IMG/VR virus record: IMGVR_UViG_3300047378_000694
Span: 106,116-170,115 of that record
Strand: one strand, 5' to 3'
Length of the DNA stretch: 64,000 bases
DNA from: a virus
Made by a program: the position numbers and the translations under genes. Position 1 is the stretch's first letter. Each line of letters begins with the position of its first letter. This document shows positions 49,257 to 58,122 of this stretch, one piece after another. Under the pieces are notes generated by a model that saw only the letters and a list, made by a program, of their open reading frames with translations, was not told the origin of the DNA and made no database searches.

Positions 49257-50270
49257 TTGTTTAAAAAAGCTGCGGTCTTTACAGACATACACTTTGGATT
49301 AAAAGGCAATTCACGTGTTCACAACCAAGATTGTGAGGATTATGTGGATTGGTTTATCCAAACGGCCAAGGAACATGGGTGCGAGACTGCCTTGTTTACT
49401 GGTGATTGGAACCATAATCGCAATAGTTTAAATTTAACTACTATGGATGCTGGGCTTCGGTGTCTTGAGAAGATAGGTGCAGCATTTGATAAGTTTTATA
49501 TGTTTGCAGGTAACCACGATTTGTATTATAAAGATAAACGTGATGTAAAGTCAACTGAGTTTGCTCGACATATTCCTGGTGTTACTGTAATTGAAGACAT
49601 ACTTGTCGAGGATGATGTTGCATTGGTACCGTGGTTAGTAGGCGATGAGTGGAAAAAGATGAAAGACATCCAAGCAAAATACTTGTTTGGACACTTTGAA
49701 CTGCCTAGCTTCTATATGAATGCAATGGTACAGATGCCCGATCACGGAGAACTAAAGAGCGAGCATTTTGTAAATCAAGAGTATGTGTTTAGCGGACACT
49801 TCCACAAACGTCAAAAACAAGGTAAGGTGCATTACATTGGTAATGCATTCCCCCATAACTATGCCGATGCATGGGACGACGATCGCGGTATGATGATACT
49901 TGATAAAGAGAATGATGCAGAACCTGAATACATTAATTGGGTCGATTGCCCTAAGTACCGCACTATTAAGCTATCGCAACTGATTGATGAGAAAGATACA
50001 CTTCTCAAAAGCAGAATGTACCTAAGAGTTACACTTGATTTACCTGTAAGCTACGAAGAAGCAAGTTTTATCAAAGAAACATTTATAAACGATTACGATT
50101 GTAGAGAGATTACACTAATTCCTCACAAACAACTTGAAGAAATTAACACCGAACTTGATATTGCACAGTTTGAAAGTGTAGATCAAATTGTTTCAAACGA
50201 AATACTAGCAATTGACAGTGATAACTTTGACAAAGCAATGCTACTAGATATCTATAACGGATTAGAATGA
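49257..50270 (+). CDS. 47: Recombination endonuclease subunit gp47 (Mre11/SbcD type)
   Basis: The protein has 337 residues, as in T4 (339). It starts at TTG 49257, seven bases after GGAG. Metallophosphoesterase motifs run in order: FTDIHFG (Asp10, His12), FTGDWNH, FAGNHDLYY, LFGHFELP and FSGHFHKRQ, giving all the metal ligands. With gp46 it resects DNA ends for recombination-dependent replication and host DNA breakdown. The stop overlaps the gp46 start as ATGA, ensuring equal synthesis. Confidence in identity is high. Confidence 0.95.
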   Translation: MFKKAAVFTDIHFGLKGNSRVHNQDCEDYVDWFIQTAKEHGCETALFTGDWNHNRNSLNLTTMDAGLRCLEKIGAAFDKFYMFAGNHDLYYKDKRDVKSTEFARHIPGVTVIEDILVEDDVALVPWLVGDEWKKMKDIQAKYLFGHFELPSFYMNAMVQMPDHGELKSEHFVNQEYVFSGHFHKRQKQGKVHYIGNAFPHNYADAWDDDRGMMILDKENDAEPEYINWVDCPKYRTIKLSQLIDEKDTLLKSRMYLRVTLDLPVSYEEASFIKETFINDYDCREITLIPHKQLEEINTELDIAQFESVDQIVSNEILAIDSDNFDKAMLLDIYNGLE

Positions 50271-52045
50271 TAAAAATTAAAGACTTAACAGTAAAGAACT
50301 TCATGAGTGTGGGTAATGTTACCCAAGCAGTTGACTTTGACGAAGAGCAACTAACCCTTGTGTTAGGCGAGAACTTGGATCAAGGCGGTGACGATACTGG
50401 ATCACGCAATGGCACTGGTAAAACCACTATCATTAATGCACTATCCTATGCATTATATGGACAGGCTCTTACAAATATCAAACGCAACAACCTTATTAAC
50501 AAAACTAACTCAAAAGGTATGCTTGTTACTCTTAACTTTGAGAAAGCTGGAAATCAATATCGTATTGAACGTGGTAGATCGCCAAACATACTCAAGTTTT
50601 ATGTCAACGAAAACGAACAAATTGATGAATTAGCTGATAACAGCCAAGGCGATAGTCGTAAAACACAGGAATCAATTAAAGACCTGCTAGACATGAGTCA
50701 CGATATGTTTAAACATATTGTTGCGCTCAATACCTACACCGAACCTTTCCTTAGTATGCGGACAAATGACCAAAGAGCTATTATTGAACAGCTTCTTGGT
50801 ATTACGATACTAAGTGAAAAGGCATCATTACTCAAAGACTCGGTCAGACTTACTAAAGATACCATTACCGAAGAAACTTTAAAGATTGAAGCTATACAAA
50901 AAGCAAACGAAGGTATCCAAAGTACTATTACTAACCTTGAAAAAACACAAAGAGCCTGGAAAGCCAAGCAACGTACCGATATTGACAAGCTAACAAGTGC
51001 AATTGAACAACTTGAAAAGTTAGATATCGATAAAGAATTAGATTCACACGACAAATTAGCAAACTGGACCAAGCATAACAATGCTATTTCGTCACTAAAG
51101 AAAGAATTAGCTACATTAGAACCTGCATTGGTACGTGCTGATAAGAGTGTTAGCAAATTAAACAAGGATATTGTTGAATTAAAGGATGCAACGTGCTATA
51201 CTTGCGGACAAGAGCTTCATGCAGACAAAAAAGCTGAAATTGAGTCAAAGAAAGCAAAAGAACTTGAAGATGCAATAGCGTATCAAAAAGAAATTACTCG
51301 AAAAGTAACAGATGTTACTGTTGAACTAGATACAATTGGTGATATTAACGGTAAGCCTACTACATTCTACGAAGCTGCTAAAGAAGCATACGAACATAGA
51401 AACAACGTAGATAACTTAAAGCAAACACTGCTAAGTAAAGAGCAAGAGGCAGACCCATATCAGGCACAAATTAACGATTTAACAAACACAGCACTACAAG
51501 ATATCAACTGGTCAACAGTTAACGAACTTACTAATGTAAAAGAACACCAAGACTTCTTGCTAAAGCTATTAACCAACAAAGATAGCTTCATTAGAAAGAA
51601 AATTATTGATCAGAACCTAGCATATCTTAACAATAGGCTAACATATTACTTAGATAAACTTGGTTTACCACATCAAGTGGTATTCTTAAACGACTTAGCA
51701 GTTGAAATTACACAGCTAGGACAAGATCTTGACTTTGATAACCTGTCACGTGGCGAACGTAATAGGTTAATTCTTGGTCTTTCGTTTGCATTCCGTGATG
51801 TTTGGGAGAGTTTGTATCAAAGTATTAACTTACTGTTCATTGATGAGCTTATTGATAGCGGAATGGACACAGCAGGCGTAGAAAACAGTATAGGCGTACT
51901 TAAAAAGATGACTAGAGAGCGTAATAAGAATATTTTCCTTATCTCACATAAGGATGAACTAGTTGGCAGGGTCAACAATGTTCTAAGAGTGGTAAAGGAA
52001 AATGGGTTCACTAGTTATGCAACAGACATTGACATTGTAGAATGA
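50267..52045 (+). CDS. 46: Recombination endonuclease subunit gp46 (Rad50/SbcC type)
   Basis: The protein has 592 residues (T4: 560). Walker A is GSRNGTGKTT at 45-54. Coiled-coil arms (about 180-300 and 320-420) flank a zinc hook CYTC near 309-312. The ABC signature LSRGERNRL is near 494 and Walker B LLFIDEL near 522. It forms the ATPase that gates the gp47 nuclease. It overlaps both neighbours by four bases, so gp47, gp46 and the next small gene form one coupled unit. Confidence 0.96.
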   Translation: MIKIKDLTVKNFMSVGNVTQAVDFDEEQLTLVLGENLDQGGDDTGSRNGTGKTTIINALSYALYGQALTNIKRNNLINKTNSKGMLVTLNFEKAGNQYRIERGRSPNILKFYVNENEQIDELADNSQGDSRKTQESIKDLLDMSHDMFKHIVALNTYTEPFLSMRTNDQRAIIEQLLGITILSEKASLLKDSVRLTKDTITEETLKIEAIQKANEGIQSTITNLEKTQRAWKAKQRTDIDKLTSAIEQLEKLDIDKELDSHDKLANWTKHNNAISSLKKELATLEPALVRADKSVSKLNKDIVELKDATCYTCGQELHADKKAEIESKKAKELEDAIAYQKEITRKVTDVTVELDTIGDINGKPTTFYEAAKEAYEHRNNVDNLKQTLLSKEQEADPYQAQINDLTNTALQDINWSTVNELTNVKEHQDFLLKLLTNKDSFIRKKIIDQNLAYLNNRLTYYLDKLGLPHQVVFLNDLAVEITQLGQDLDFDNLSRGERNRLILGLSFAFRDVWESLYQSINLLFIDELIDSGMDTAGVENSIGVLKKMTRERNKNIFLISHKDELVGRVNNVLRVVKENGFTSYATDIDIVE

Positions 52046-52294: not shown

Positions 52295-52744
52295 ATGAAT
52301 TGGACATACAAAGGTGAAGAAATAACTGAAATACCAGATGAGTACGAAGGATTTGTTTATCTTATTACCAATTTAACTAACAATCAAAAATACATAGGCA
52401 AAAAACTAGCAAAGTTTAAAACTACCAAGCCACCACTTAAAGGCAAAAAGAATAAACGTAGAGGCTACAAAGAAAGTGACTGGAAAACCTATTGGGGATC
52501 CAGTGATAGGCTTAATGCAGACGTAGCCGCACTAGGCGAAGACAAGTTTACAAGAGAAATACTATACCTATGTAAAGGTAGGGGCGAAATGTCCTACATA
52601 GAGGCACGAGAGCAGTTTGACAGGCGAGTACTTGAAACAGATGATTACTACAACGGTATCATTAATGTTAGAGTGGGCGGATCAGACAAACTAAAACAGG
52701 CATTGCTAGAACATCACATACAGGCAAAACATTCCAACACATAA
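52295..52744 (+). CDS. GIY-YIG-like nuclease
   Basis: The protein has 149 residues. FVYLITNLTNNQKYIGKK near 26-43 is a variant GIY-YIG motif (VYL for GIY, YIG kept), followed by a basic loop (KGKKNKRRGYKESDWKTYWG) and later SYIEAREQFDRRVL with the conserved Glu region. Such enzymes in T4-like phages are homing or Seg-like endonucleases. The gene sits seven bases after the small basic gene and just before a 480-base non-coding stretch. No DNA-binding C-terminal repeat is present, so it may be a stand-alone nuclease of short type. Confidence 0.75.
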   Translation: MNWTYKGEEITEIPDEYEGFVYLITNLTNNQKYIGKKLAKFKTTKPPLKGKKNKRRGYKESDWKTYWGSSDRLNADVAALGEDKFTREILYLCKGRGEMSYIEAREQFDRRVLETDDYYNGIINVRVGGSDKLKQALLEHHIQAKHSNT

Positions 52745-53745: not shown

Positions 53746-54372
53746 ATGAACGTATTTCAAATTATTGCTGAAGATCAAGAACTAGATGAAGTGATTCCAT
53801 TTACTAAAAAAGCTAAGATGATGAAAAAAGCTGGTAAAGCAGCCAAAGGTGCTACCAAAGACGAAGCACGTCAGCTAGAAGTTGAACTACTTACATATTT
53901 AAAAACATCTGGACAGACAGCAACAGCTGATGCTGTTTTGAAATACTTTGATCAAAAAGGTTATGGCAATGTTGCAGCGCCAATTATTGCTAATCTAAAA
54001 ACCAAAGGAAATAAAAAAGCTGATCGTCAAACAGCAAAAGCTGACAAGCGTCAAGCCAAAGCAGATGCTAAAGCAGCAGCACAAGCCGATGCAGAAAAGG
54101 CAGCAGGTTTAGAAAAACAACGTCAAGGTATGGCAGCAATGTCAAGTATGTACAGTGAAGCAGAAGGCCAAGATGTATTAACTAAACGTGAAGTGCGTGG
54201 TATTATCAAACAGGTTGTACAAAAAGGTTATGGCGGAGCAGCAGGATTTGGTAAAGGAAAGTTTGCAGCACCTGATCCAAAATTTAAGTCAGCAAATGCT
54301 AAAATTGATCCAGCAATCCAAAAAGCTTCTGACATGTTGAAAAAAGCAGGATACACAGTAACTAAAACTTAA
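53746..54372 (+). CDS. Lys/Ala-rich hypothetical protein, late
   Basis: The protein has 208 residues. After a short acidic start it becomes very rich in Lys and Ala (KKAKMMKKAGKAAKGATKD; DRQTAKADKRQAKADAKAAA), like histone H1 tails, around a small folded part (LLTYLKTSGQTATADAVLKY). The C-terminus has GGAAGFGKGKFAAPDPKFKS. It may bind DNA or be an internal virion protein that is injected. It lies behind a late box, which supports a virion or packaging role. The 3' end overlaps the convergent frameshift ORF by four bases. I recognise no family. Confidence 0.65.
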   Translation: MNVFQIIAEDQELDEVIPFTKKAKMMKKAGKAAKGATKDEARQLEVELLTYLKTSGQTATADAVLKYFDQKGYGNVAAPIIANLKTKGNKKADRQTAKADKRQAKADAKAAAQADAEKAAGLEKQRQGMAAMSSMYSEAEGQDVLTKREVRGIIKQVVQKGYGGAAGFGKGKFAAPDPKFKSANAKIDPAIQKASDMLKKAGYTVTKT

Positions 54373-54599
54373 AAGTAAGGCTGTCCAGTTTTTTGAGCAG
54401 TCTCTAGATTTTCTGTGGCTAGTTTAGATATAACTTCTTTATCATCTGGCGAAAGCATATATGCATCATCATAAGATAGAGATCCTCGCATGTGCCAGCA
54501 TATTTTTGCCATATCGTATCTAATTTGTTTTACTTCGTCTTCAAGGACCTTAACTTCTTTAAGAATGTCTTCAACTGAAAGTGCTAAGATCCTGATGCG
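54369..54599 (-). CDS. -1 frameshift extension of gp26 (76 codons)
   Basis: This frame is open from a TGA at 54615-54617 down to TAA at 54369-54371 but has no ATG, GTG or TTG in its first 100 bases. The first ATG is at 54512, inside the conserved-looking part and with no ribosome site. It is entered exactly by a -1 slip on A AAT TTT TTC at 54599-54608 in gp26. The product would add 76 residues: VEDILKEVKVLEDEVKQIRY, then WHMRGSLSYDDAYMLSP and ENLETAQKTGQPYF. That ending matches, from memory, a small conserved protein of T4-like marine phages. Alternatives are a separate gene with a rare start, or an indel error in the A6 run. Confidence 0.65.
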   Translation of the reverse strand, partial: RIRILALSVEDILKEVKVLEDEVKQIRYDMAKICWHMRGSLSYDDAYMLSPDDKEVISKLATENLETAQKTGQPYF

Positions 54600-55447
54600 A
54601 AAAAATTTGAAGCATCAAAGTTGATTGGTATTTCCATAGTATCTGGAGCACCGTCAGCTCTGTCCTCTTCGCTAGTTACAATTTTTCTTGGCTTAACTGT
54701 AAACTTTTTTCTTTGTTCATCAACATGATCGAGAATTGATTTGTAAACATCAACTGGAGCATTTTCTAAAAAGTCAGCTAAGTGTCTTGTGTCGGTAACA
54801 GTATTTCCGTCAACTGTAATTGACTTTACACTATTAAACACATTAGCAATATTAATATCAGTTAAACGCTGAAATGTTTCGTTGAACTTTTGAATCTTTT
54901 CACCTTCGCTCATGTCGTCGTCGTTAACAATTTTAAGAATACGCTGTTCCTCAAATGTTTTAAGAGCAACATCGGTAAACTGTTTGTACGTCATTGGAGC
55001 AGTTTCGATTGTAAATTCGTTATGTGTAAAACTAGTTTGATATTCGTTAACAACTAATTCGTCTAAGATTTCAACTAGATTTGCTTCAAATGCACGTTCG
55101 TTTTCAGTACCCGGAATAGTAAACTCTAACGATAGTGACTCTCCGTATGTAGCAATACGTATTGCCGTTAACAATGCATCGAGATCAATATTTGGAACTA
55201 ACCAAGCGTTTTTAATACCAGGACAGCAATTTTGAATTACACTTACTGTACTTTGTCCATTTAACAAAGCATCTGGTGTTTTAATCATAATTTCATCTTT
55301 AGCTGTCATAGCATACACTGCAACTTTACCATCTTCGGTTAATTCAATTGTACCTTGCGGATAGAACAAACCTTTGCTAGGTAGGTCGATATATAGTTTA
55401 GGCTGACGAAAATGTTTCATCAGTGGATTTGGTTTAATCTCAGTCAT
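54584..55447 (-). CDS. 26: Baseplate hub/assembly protein gp26
   Basis: The protein has 287 residues (T4 gp26: 208). The N-terminus has NPLMKHFRQPKLYIDLPSKG, then LFYPQGTIEL, AMTAKDEIMIKTPDALLNGQ and a Cys-containing SVIQNCCPGIKNAWLVPNID, the signature of gp26 in T4-like marine phages. In T4 gp26 is needed to build the baseplate hub. The gene is alone on the minus strand amid plus-strand genes and back to back with the tape measure gene. Its end carries the slippery sequence leading into the -1 ORF, so two products are expected: the 287-residue form and a longer fusion. A good ribosome site (CCGGAG) precedes the ATG. Confidence 0.88.
   Translation of the reverse strand: MTEIKPNPLMKHFRQPKLYIDLPSKGLFYPQGTIELTEDGKVAVYAMTAKDEIMIKTPDALLNGQSTVSVIQNCCPGIKNAWLVPNIDLDALLTAIRIATYGESLSLEFTIPGTENERAFEANLVEILDELVVNEYQTSFTHNEFTIETAPMTYKQFTDVALKTFEEQRILKIVNDDDMSEGEKIQKFNETFQRLTDINIANVFNSVKSITVDGNTVTDTRHLADFLENAPVDVYKSILDHVDEQRKKFTVKPRKIVTSEEDRADGAPDTMEIPINFDASNFFASGS
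54599..54608 (-). other. Slippery sequence for -1 ribosomal frameshift
   Basis: In gp26 frame the minus strand reads TCA AAT TTT TTC GCA. Two overlapping X XXY YYZ heptamers are present: A AAT TTT and T TTT TTC. Both lead to the same -1 frame. The zero-frame stop comes only five codons later. No strong downstream hairpin is obvious; only short stems can be drawn. Confidence 0.6.
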
Positions 55448-55521: not shown

Positions 55522-58122
55522 GTGGCAGAAACAGAAATTTTAAATGTAGGCGGTCCTCAGGGCGTTGCTAGTGAAGCAACCCTACTAAAACTTATTGATT
55601 TAACACGCCAGCAACAGCGTGGCCAAGGATCGGCTGCCCAAGCTGAAGCAAAACTAAGGCAAACACACAATGCTGCAATCAAAAAAGGTTCAGATAATGT
55701 TGGTGTACTTGGCAAAGCAGCACAAGCCGGCGCAAAGGCATTTGATACATACACAAAGGTTTTAAAAGACGGTGTTGGCGGAGTAAGTGACTTCACTGAC
55801 TCAATGAAGTTTTTACCTAGCACAATGAAATCTCTAATACGTTTTGCAGATGCAAGCACACATCAGTTTAGAGAACTTAGTCAAGTTGGTGCAGGATTTG
55901 GTAATAGTATTTTTGAAATGAACAAAGTAGCTGCAACCAGCGGAATGGCAATGACAGATTTTTACGAAACTGTAAACGCAAATTCTACTACAATGCGTTT
56001 TTTAAGTGGCAGTGTACAAGAAGGTGCTAAACGTTTTGCAGAAGTGTCGCATGGATTGCGTTCAAGCGATTTAGGTGAAACACTTTTTAATATGGGTTTC
56101 TCAATTGGAGAAATAAACGAAGGGTTCCTAACCTATACAAATAATATGCAACGCCAGGGTATGCTGCAAGGCATGTCCAATCGAGAACTAATTGAAGGTA
56201 GTGCAGATTATCTAAAACAAATTGATTTGTTAGCAAAAGCAACCGGCGCAAGTAGAAAAGAATTTTTAAATCAAACTGAAGCACTACAAGAAAGTTCTCA
56301 GTTTCAGTCATTACTAGCAAGAGCCGGAGAAGGTGCTGACGATTTAACTAATAACCTTGCGTTTGCTGCACAAACTCTAGGCGGACAGTTTACAGACGAT
56401 TTAGTTCAAATTTCAAGTGGCACAGGCGGACTAACTGATCTAGGTATAGCACTACAACAAGTAAATGGCGGCAAGGCGTTTACAGATCTTATGAAAAATG
56501 CTGAGAACATGGATCCAAATGAGTTTATGAGACAATTTAGTGCTCTTGCTCCTGATATTAGAGACAGTATCAAAAGCCAGTTTAGCCCAGCCGAAATGAG
56601 ATTATTACAAGGTACACCTCTAGGTGCATTGTTTGATACACTCGGAGGGTTTTCAAGAGCCGCAGGAATTAATGTTGATAAAATAATCGAAGAACAAGAA
56701 CAACGAGATGCAGTTACCTCTGCGTTTGCAGGGTTCCAACAAGCTGTTGCTGATCTATCAAAGTTTATAACAGATAACTTTCTAAAAAGTGAAACATTTA
56801 AAAGTTTAAAAGAACTAGGTACTAGTTTGTCAGCTTCGTTTGCTACGTTGTTTGGTCCTGTTTCGCAAGACGGATCATTTAAAAATGCATCAGACGGCAT
56901 TTCAAAATTTGTAACAATGGTTGACACTTTTGTAAAAGAAAATTTAATCGATCCAATAACAGCAGAAGTTAACAAATTTACTACTCATATGAAAAACGAT
57001 GGCGATGCAGGAACATATTTTAAAGATAAATTAACAGCAGCTGGTAATAAGATTTTAGATTTTTTCTTAGGTGCAGTTGGTGAAAATGAATTTGGCGAAG
57101 CAGGTAGAGGACAACGCGAAGGCGGACTGTTTTCAAAAGTTGGAGATGCACTTTCAAGCGTATTTGAAAATGAAGGATTTAGAGCAAGAATAAAAGGAAT
57201 GTTTAGCGATGTTGCATTGTTAGCATCAGATTCAATTGCAGGTTGGTTTGACTCTGAAGCAGCAAAAGCCTCACTTGGAGAACTTAAAAACGGTATACTA
57301 AAAGCAATGGGCTTTAAAACCGAAGAAGGGTCAAAAACAGTTTTTGAACAATTAAAAGATAGAGTATTAGGCGAGGCAGCCTCGCCTAGTGATAGTTTAA
57401 TGAAACGAATAGAAACAAAAATATTTGGAGTAAGAGACGAATCGCAAGGAGAAATGTCAGTAATGGGTCGTGTAATTGATGAACTAATAACTGGTATTAC
57501 AAATGCGTTTGCTTCGGAATCGTTTAAAACTAAAATGGACGAAATTGTAGATACACTAAAACCTGTAATAGATTCTTCTATAAGAAAGTTACTAGAAGCA
57601 TTAAACAGCACATTTCTTGGATACTTTATTCCAAATTCATCATTTGCAGGTGCCGAAGAACAACAATCAGGACTAGCAGATCAACTAAGAGTATTGGCAG
57701 AAACACCCGGCTTGGGTTACTCTGCGCCACGCAATCAAGGCGAAACTGATCGTCAGTATATAGCACGAATAATAGAAAGTGGCGACTTAATGGGTGCATA
57801 TGCTGAGAGTGGTAGAAATATATTAGGACAACTTGGTAATCTTGAAGCTAATAATCCAAACTTAGTTCCTATAAGACATGTTGGTACATTGCGAGCTACT
57901 GGAAAAACTACAGAACCTGAAGGTGGTTTAATGAATATTAGTCAAGGTGAGCGTGTACTCAACCCATCAGAAGCAGCAGCATACAACAGTCAATCTGACC
58001 TTGGAGGTGCTATCAATAGACTAAATACTACTACCGCACAATTAGTAACACTAATGAAACAGAATAACAGAATCACCAGCGGTATCAGTAATGACTTCTT
58101 GAAAGGATCGTTAACAGTATGA
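55522..58122 (+). CDS. Tail tape measure protein
   Basis: The protein has 866 residues and starts at GTG 55522, eight bases after AGGAA. It is long, helical and Gly/Ala-rich with repeated amphipathic stretches (GKAAQAGAKAFDTYTKVLKD; ISKFVTMVDTFVKENLIDP), and has the loose low-complexity feel of tape measure proteins. Its place, next to gp26 and just before the portal gene, is that of the tape measure (gp29 equivalent) in cyanophages. It sets tail length and is injected with DNA. The C-terminus has NISQGERVLNPSEAAAYNSQ, a motif common at tape-measure ends. It overlaps the portal gene by four bases. Confidence 0.8.
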   Translation: MAETEILNVGGPQGVASEATLLKLIDLTRQQQRGQGSAAQAEAKLRQTHNAAIKKGSDNVGVLGKAAQAGAKAFDTYTKVLKDGVGGVSDFTDSMKFLPSTMKSLIRFADASTHQFRELSQVGAGFGNSIFEMNKVAATSGMAMTDFYETVNANSTTMRFLSGSVQEGAKRFAEVSHGLRSSDLGETLFNMGFSIGEINEGFLTYTNNMQRQGMLQGMSNRELIEGSADYLKQIDLLAKATGASRKEFLNQTEALQESSQFQSLLARAGEGADDLTNNLAFAAQTLGGQFTDDLVQISSGTGGLTDLGIALQQVNGGKAFTDLMKNAENMDPNEFMRQFSALAPDIRDSIKSQFSPAEMRLLQGTPLGALFDTLGGFSRAAGINVDKIIEEQEQRDAVTSAFAGFQQAVADLSKFITDNFLKSETFKSLKELGTSLSASFATLFGPVSQDGSFKNASDGISKFVTMVDTFVKENLIDPITAEVNKFTTHMKNDGDAGTYFKDKLTAAGNKILDFFLGAVGENEFGEAGRGQREGGLFSKVGDALSSVFENEGFRARIKGMFSDVALLASDSIAGWFDSEAAKASLGELKNGILKAMGFKTEEGSKTVFEQLKDRVLGEAASPSDSLMKRIETKIFGVRDESQGEMSVMGRVIDELITGITNAFASESFKTKMDEIVDTLKPVIDSSIRKLLEALNSTFLGYFIPNSSFAGAEEQQSGLADQLRVLAETPGLGYSAPRNQGETDRQYIARIIESGDLMGAYAESGRNILGQLGNLEANNPNLVPIRHVGTLRATGKTTEPEGGLMNISQGERVLNPSEAAAYNSQSDLGGAINRLNTTTAQLVTLMKQNNRITSGISNDFLKGSLTV

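Follow-up and report, generated by a model that had tools for sequence, protein, structure and literature searches.

A 64,000-nucleotide stretch of DNA from a marine T4-like phage (IMG/VR record IMGVR_UViG_3300047378_000694, positions 106,116 to 170,115; hereafter the window) carries a gp26 gene that is followed by an overlapping open reading frame (ORF) in the -1 frame. Based on sequence comparisons, gp26 and this -1 extension very probably constitute one recoded gene, from which a tail assembly chaperone (TAC) pair would be made by ribosomal frameshifting at the heptamer T TTT TTC. The same appears to hold for most relatives, cyanophages and jumbo phages included. A chaperone pair made by a frameshift is textbook knowledge for phage tails. 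Most ribosomes would terminate at the gp26 stop and release the short form of 287 aa (TAC-N). On a minority of ribosomes, both Phe tRNAs would move back by one base and pair anew on U UUU UUC, aided by an RNA stem with its first pair 5 nt downstream of the heptamer. These ribosomes, now in the -1 frame, would read past the gp26 stop and complete a predicted 359-aa product (TAC-NC) with a helical C-terminal domain. By analogy with gpG/gpGT of phage lambda, TAC-N would coat the tape measure protein, and TAC-NC would bring in the subunits of the tail tube. We infer the slippage and its rate, as well as these chaperone roles.

All features of the recoded gene lie on the minus strand. The gp26 gene (54584..55447) ends with TCA AAT TTT TTC GCA TCA GGA TCT TAG, in which TTC stands five codons ahead of the stop TAG (54584..54586) that frameshifted ribosomes are predicted to bypass. 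The heptamer T TTT TTC (54599..54605) is in the gp26 frame, where it fits the X XXY YYZ pattern of -1 frameshift sites, and encodes Phe-Phe (residues 282-283). An initial annotation of the window had pointed to two overlapping heptamers five codons before the stop, and both are present there in the gp26 frame. T TTT TTC is universal in the 79 loci described below, whereas A AAT TTT (54602..54608) was found in 61 of them and appears to be accessory. The rarity of the site was discarded as a line of evidence, since the 10-mer AAATTTTTTC occurs in the AT-rich 64-kb window about as often as chance predicts (2 observed, 1.27 expected). The case for frameshifting therefore depends on relatives.

Searches with tblastn revealed jumbo-phage relatives of gp26 at 28-36% identity, and the extension as query matched Agrobacterium phage Atu_ph07 and Sinorhizobium phage Phosso. 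Two scans of IMG/VR yielded 19 and 80 loci, the second with 583 relatives. We then considered the 79 distinct loci with a complete gp26 end, which came from marine IMG/VR phages, jumbo phages and cyanophages and included P-SSM2, S-PM2 and Delftia phage W-14; at 70% nucleotide identity, they fall into 59 clusters. T TTT TTC was found in the gp26 frame in all 79, always preceded by an NNT codon, and the -1 frame was open across the slippery site in every locus. The nucleotide directly 3' of the heptamer was G in 78 loci, and the gp26 stop followed one codon past the heptamer in 69. From the Phe codons of the same genes (905 TTT and 171 TTC), TTT TTC would be expected at 13.4% of Phe-Phe pairs, a value that serves as a guide and not as a p-value, the loci being phylogenetically related. 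The other Phe-Phe pairs of these genes were written TTT TTC in 5 of 39 cases.

In a second retrieval, the query consisted solely of conserved segments that the extension carries 3' of the site, namely W-[YFH]-MRG and the C-terminus; the resulting set overlaps the first. T TTT TTC was present in all 71 distinct loci retrieved in this way, and the gp26 frame was open upstream, as far as testable, in 70 of them. None of the 71 had the extension as a stand-alone gene. Among cultured phages, T TTT TTC was found in KVP40, D483, Mendera, S-CAM9 and RaK2, and variants at the gp26 end were T TTT TTT in HTVC008M and Cr30 and T TTT TTG in phiM9.

The -1 extension (54369..54599; 76 codons and a stop at 54371-54369) reads RIRILALSVEDILKEVK...ENLETAQKTGQPYF after the slip, and the -1 frame is already open upstream of the slippery site. 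Its length is identical among the marine relatives, without a single indel, and FFR, W, MRG and N are invariant among 30 aligned extensions. Just past the gp26 stop, heterozygosity at -1 codon positions 1, 2 and 3 was 0.49, 0.27 and 0.615, compared with 0.375, 0.27 and 0.554 in gp26 itself. Such a pattern is a signature of coding in the -1 frame and points to selection at the protein level. A confident AlphaFold model of the extension (predicted local distance difference test, pLDDT, 89) contains helices at residues 11-38 and 53-73. No identity for the extension was found in Pfam or PHROG, and a fold search with the extension alone gave nothing significant, a T4-type gp51 (phage ZZ1) being at rank 16 with E 3. 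In three relatives, the annotation covers the -1 extension only in part, by an ORF that begins at an internal start codon: Atu_ph07 (2109-2231 of locus L003), Bue1 (1253-1375 of L132) and D504 (1296-1400 of L133).

In one window, such an overlap could arise from a sequencing or assembly error or from a decaying reading frame that overlaps by chance, the more so as the 10-mer is common in AT-rich DNA. The heptamer is, however, identical to the letter in metagenome assemblies made independently of each other and in finished genomes of isolates, and the extension is constant in length and under purifying selection. An origin by error or chance is thus refuted by the comparative data, and we give it practically no weight.

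It is also improbable that the small ORF constitutes a gene of its own, expressed by termination-reinitiation or from its own start without any fusion protein. It is annotated as a separate gene in several relatives (Phosso, 121Q, XbC2, KVP40 and P-SSM2 'gp51'), and in some relatives an ATGA or TAATG lies across the gp26 stop, an overlap that likewise enters the -1 frame. The initial annotation had named a small ORF set apart behind its own ribosome site and ATG as evidence against a frameshift. An ATG close to the beginning of the ORF does occur in these relatives, but they retain the heptamer. Moreover, no ATG, GTG or TTG occurs within the first 12 extension codons in 36 of 69 marine loci. 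In the window, the first is the ATG at 54512, codon 29, which agrees with the 76-codon open frame lacking an early start in the initial annotation. The only ATG-started ORF within the extension (54369..54512; 47 aa) is probably not a gene in its own right, judging from the conserved FFRIRIL... upstream of its ATG. In most loci, the conserved joint FFR.R lies before any start codon, where it is readable only via the heptamer. Re-initiation would not keep T TTT TTC together with a stem at fixed spacing, and T4 gp51 holds both parts in one chain.

The proposed frameshift is further supported by the RNA downstream of the site, which was absent from the initial annotation. In the window, a 5-nt spacer GCATC (54594..54598) separates the heptamer from the 5' arm AGGATCTTAGC (54583..54593), which includes the gp26 stop. 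This arm forms 11 bp with the 3' arm GTTAAGGTCCT (54544..54554), with a folding energy of -16.1 kcal/mol (z -2.30). Across 76 loci, the RNA directly past the site was more stable than dinucleotide shuffles (mean z -2.0), which was not the case for most other windows. It was also more structured than variants that keep the -1 protein (mean z -2.44 +/- 0.20; controls -0.42, 0.16 and -0.27). A helix of at least 6 bp that begins 5 nt past the heptamer (+/-1 nt) was found in 53 of 68 marine loci, and one of at least 8 bp in 42 of 68, against 0-17 in shifted windows.

Two registers of this stem could be distinguished, in which the 5' arm AGGATCTTA pairs with a 3' arm that ends at nt 44 (short register, 27 loci) or at nt 62 (long register, 23 loci including the window). 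Covariation was found in both. The 23 loci of the long register had 18 double-changed cells against 5.4 after shuffling, and the short register had 22 against 9.0; in neither case did any of 500 shuffles reach the observed number. Sliding the partner arm by 1-3 nt reduced pairing from 92% (91.7%) to at most 52% in the long register and from 86% to at most 46% in the short one. These percentages are biased upward because the register classes were chosen by having a helix, and the double changes are therefore the better evidence. No identity for the RNA element was found in Rfam. The stem is predicted to stimulate frameshifting at the heptamer, and its 5-nt spacing lies within the range of about 5-9 nt that is expected of a -1 frameshift cassette.

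A homopolymer run sits at the site, and the frame could in principle be changed by slippage of the RNA polymerase on the six Ts rather than by the ribosome. Polymerases slip poorly on runs as short as this. All 79 loci have exactly six Ts with C at the last position, and the codon phase of the run and the RNA stem spaced by 5 nt fit ribosomal slippage. We therefore regard polymerase slippage as very improbable. The comparison of relatives that the initial annotation had proposed favours its reading of a -1 ribosomal frameshift: the site and the -1 ORF are both kept, a usable start near the beginning of the ORF is usually absent, and a covarying stem follows.

The gp26 product matched the PF12322 (T4_baseplate) profile with 34.5 bits (curated Pfam cut-off 24.5) and phrog_150 (baseplate hub) at 3.2e-9. 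Its AlphaFold model (pLDDT 82.5) resembles predicted T4-like baseplate hub assembly proteins in BFVD (best E 1e-21), and an annotated phage TAC was a borderline match in the fold search (E 0.14, probability 0.95). Among the BFVD fold matches with E 1e-7 to 1e-3 were uncharacterised proteins of 450-690 aa from other large phages (Erwinia phages Special G and phiEaH2, Ralstonia phages RSF1 and RP12, and Klebsiella phage Eowyn); judged from the models, it is possible that these are unrecognised PF12322-like chaperones.

T4 gp26 and T4 gp51 both match PF12322 (8.8e-64 and 3.9e-52, respectively), and gp51 has an extra C-terminus; the two are paralogues. Extensions of the cyanophage and KVP40 type aligned with gp51 C-termini in hhalign at 97.3% probability (E 2.4e-11, one comparison), and marine with cyanophage extensions at 81.7% (E 1.1e-5). 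The -1 extension is therefore probably homologous, via the cyanophages, to the T4 gp51 C-terminus. Together with the published identification of gp26 and gp51 as chaperones (cited in PMC10885494), this probable homology supports the identification of gp26 as the T4-type tail assembly chaperone, which the initial annotation had proposed.

PF12322 is present in a single copy in the genome of the window phage and in one gene in each heptamer-bearing record searched, several of the IMG/VR records being fragments, compared with two genes in T4. The five two-gene phages inspected (T4, 44RR, ZZ1, KPN6 and EC-F2) have no heptamer at the gp26 end; for the latter four, the two genes were assigned from annotation and sequence and not by a family search. 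T4 gp26 retains the Phe-Phe pair, written TTC TTT. So there would be two ways to the long form: a frameshift where the phage has a single gene, and an additional, fused gene in phages of the T4 type. The frameshift layout in KVP40, a member of the Straboviridae, makes duplication the likelier derived state. We lean slightly towards a history in which the single-gene frameshift at T TTT TTC is ancestral for the T4 superfamily, including cyanophages and jumbo phages. In T4 and its close kin, a gene duplication would have fixed the two forms as separate genes (short gp26 and fused gp51), followed by loss of the slippery site, and the marine stem would have switched 3' arms around a fixed 5' arm. 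The gp51 of Acinetobacter phage ZZ1 (L128 1501-2255) was recovered in two tblastn pieces. Its annotation begins at 1680 and mentions an overlapping coding sequence of the same name; this is probably a sequence or annotation irregularity of the record.

Several observations weigh against a recoded chaperone gene. In the Ackermannviridae, the -1 ORF is kept and the canonical heptamer is absent. In Vi01, Ds9CZ, Bue1 and BX-1 of this family, as well as in Vibrio phage D504, the -1 ORF behind gp26 contains an MPWH-type motif. Their gp26 genes end with ATT TTC ATT TAA, CTT TTC AAG TAA or GTT TTT CGC TAA and thus contain no canonical X XXY YYZ; the start codons of the -1 ORF are also unconserved in these phages. 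The -1 ORF of the Ackermannviridae needs another explanation. An ATG overlaps the gp26 stop in 9 of 69 marine loci and in several other lineages, where coupled re-initiation may add a free C-terminal domain. The anchored stem of at least 6 bp is absent in 15 of 68 marine loci, and folding past the site is weak in several jumbo phages. The marine extension compared directly with the T4 gp51 C-terminus gave a weak match (hhalign 44.7%). No Phage_TAC family matched gp26 in the Pfam scan, in which PF12322 was the sole match, and sequence and fold searches of the PDB with gp26 found no significant match to a solved structure.

The gene next to gp26 (55522..58122, plus strand; 866 aa) probably encodes the tape measure protein. 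Its place and strand match the 'putative tape measure protein' of Erwinia phage pEa_SNUABM_47, and the sequence gave a weak alignment and no family match. The initial annotation had placed gp26 back to back with the tape measure gene. A divergent gene does adjoin gp26, but its identity comes from synteny and not from a family match. In both the window and the jumbo phages, gp26 and the probable tape measure gene are direct neighbours that point away from each other. In Cr30, the gp26-type gene lies on the same strand just upstream of the tape measure gene, with one small ORF between them. T4-type late promoter motifs TATAAATA were not enriched, and none occurred in the gp26 intergenic region. 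Elsewhere on the plus strand, two adjacent ORFs of 337 and 592 aa (49257-52045) resemble gp47/gp46-type recombination nuclease subunits, and an ORF of 149 aa (52295-52744) has a GIY-YIG-like start GFVYLITNLTNNQKYIGKK, both by eye only.

Part of this system has been described before. T4 gp26 and gp51 have been listed as hub assembly chaperones (PMC3004832), and Vladimirov, Gautam and Davidson (2022; doi 10.1016/j.virol.2021.11.003), as cited in PMC10885494 and PMC12846349, identified them as the T4 tail assembly chaperones. The PRFect paper (PMC10885494) cites this work for T4-like phages with one short and one long fusion gene and no frameshift, and PMC12846349 credits it with poly-T frameshift signals that occur in the TAC-N genes of T4-like phages. 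The suggestion of the initial annotation that such a frameshift may be undescribed in T4-like phages is thus outdated, at least as these citing passages present the 2022 work. Likewise, we dropped the idea that the relation of T4 gp26 to gp51 is new, and the KVP40 record already remarks on the similarity of its small ORF to the T4 gp51 C-terminus. No report of an invariant heptamer with a covarying stem in the marine and jumbo lineages was found in the literature searched, in which Vladimirov et al. (2022) was represented by the papers that cite it. The heptamer-plus-stem cassette in these phages may be new in detail.

The tail assembly chaperone frameshift in general, and that of lambda gpG/gpGT, was described by Xu, Hendrix and Duda (2004) and is treated in the review PMC5009743, which makes T4 an exception to the conserved pattern. 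T4-superfamily phages that have a single chaperone gene, cyanophages and jumbo phages among them, would then obey the general rule for long-tailed phages, and the assembly factors gp26 and gp51 would receive an evolutionary account. Similar to lambda, the probable chaperone gene of the window lies beside the probable tape measure gene. In lambda it is located upstream on the same strand, whereas gp26 of the window and its neighbour run in opposite directions, and there is no detectable sequence relation between lambda G/T and gp26 or its extension. T4 gp26 and gp51 belong to the same family as gp26 of the window, and in gp51 a gp26-like domain is joined to the probable counterpart of the -1 extension. 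The difference is that T4, 44RR, ZZ1, KPN6 and EC-F2 use two genes without a heptamer, and the window phage has one gene with a frameshift cassette. A conserved poly-T site (GTTTTT) with a stop-free -1 extension is also found in the TAC genes of the Vandenendeviridae/Andersonviridae (phage Adele, PMC12846349), which are another phage lineage. Further counterparts are the small ORFs of KVP40, phiM9, Cr30 and cyanophages annotated as 'gp51, baseplate hub assembly catalyst', which occupy the same place and the same -1 frame, with T TTT TTC (or TTT TTT, TTT TTG) at the gp26 end. They differ in being annotated as free-standing, with an internal or overlapping ATG. The present comparison suggests that they are C-terminal parts of a fusion, as are probably many public records named 'gp51' or 'hypothetical protein'.
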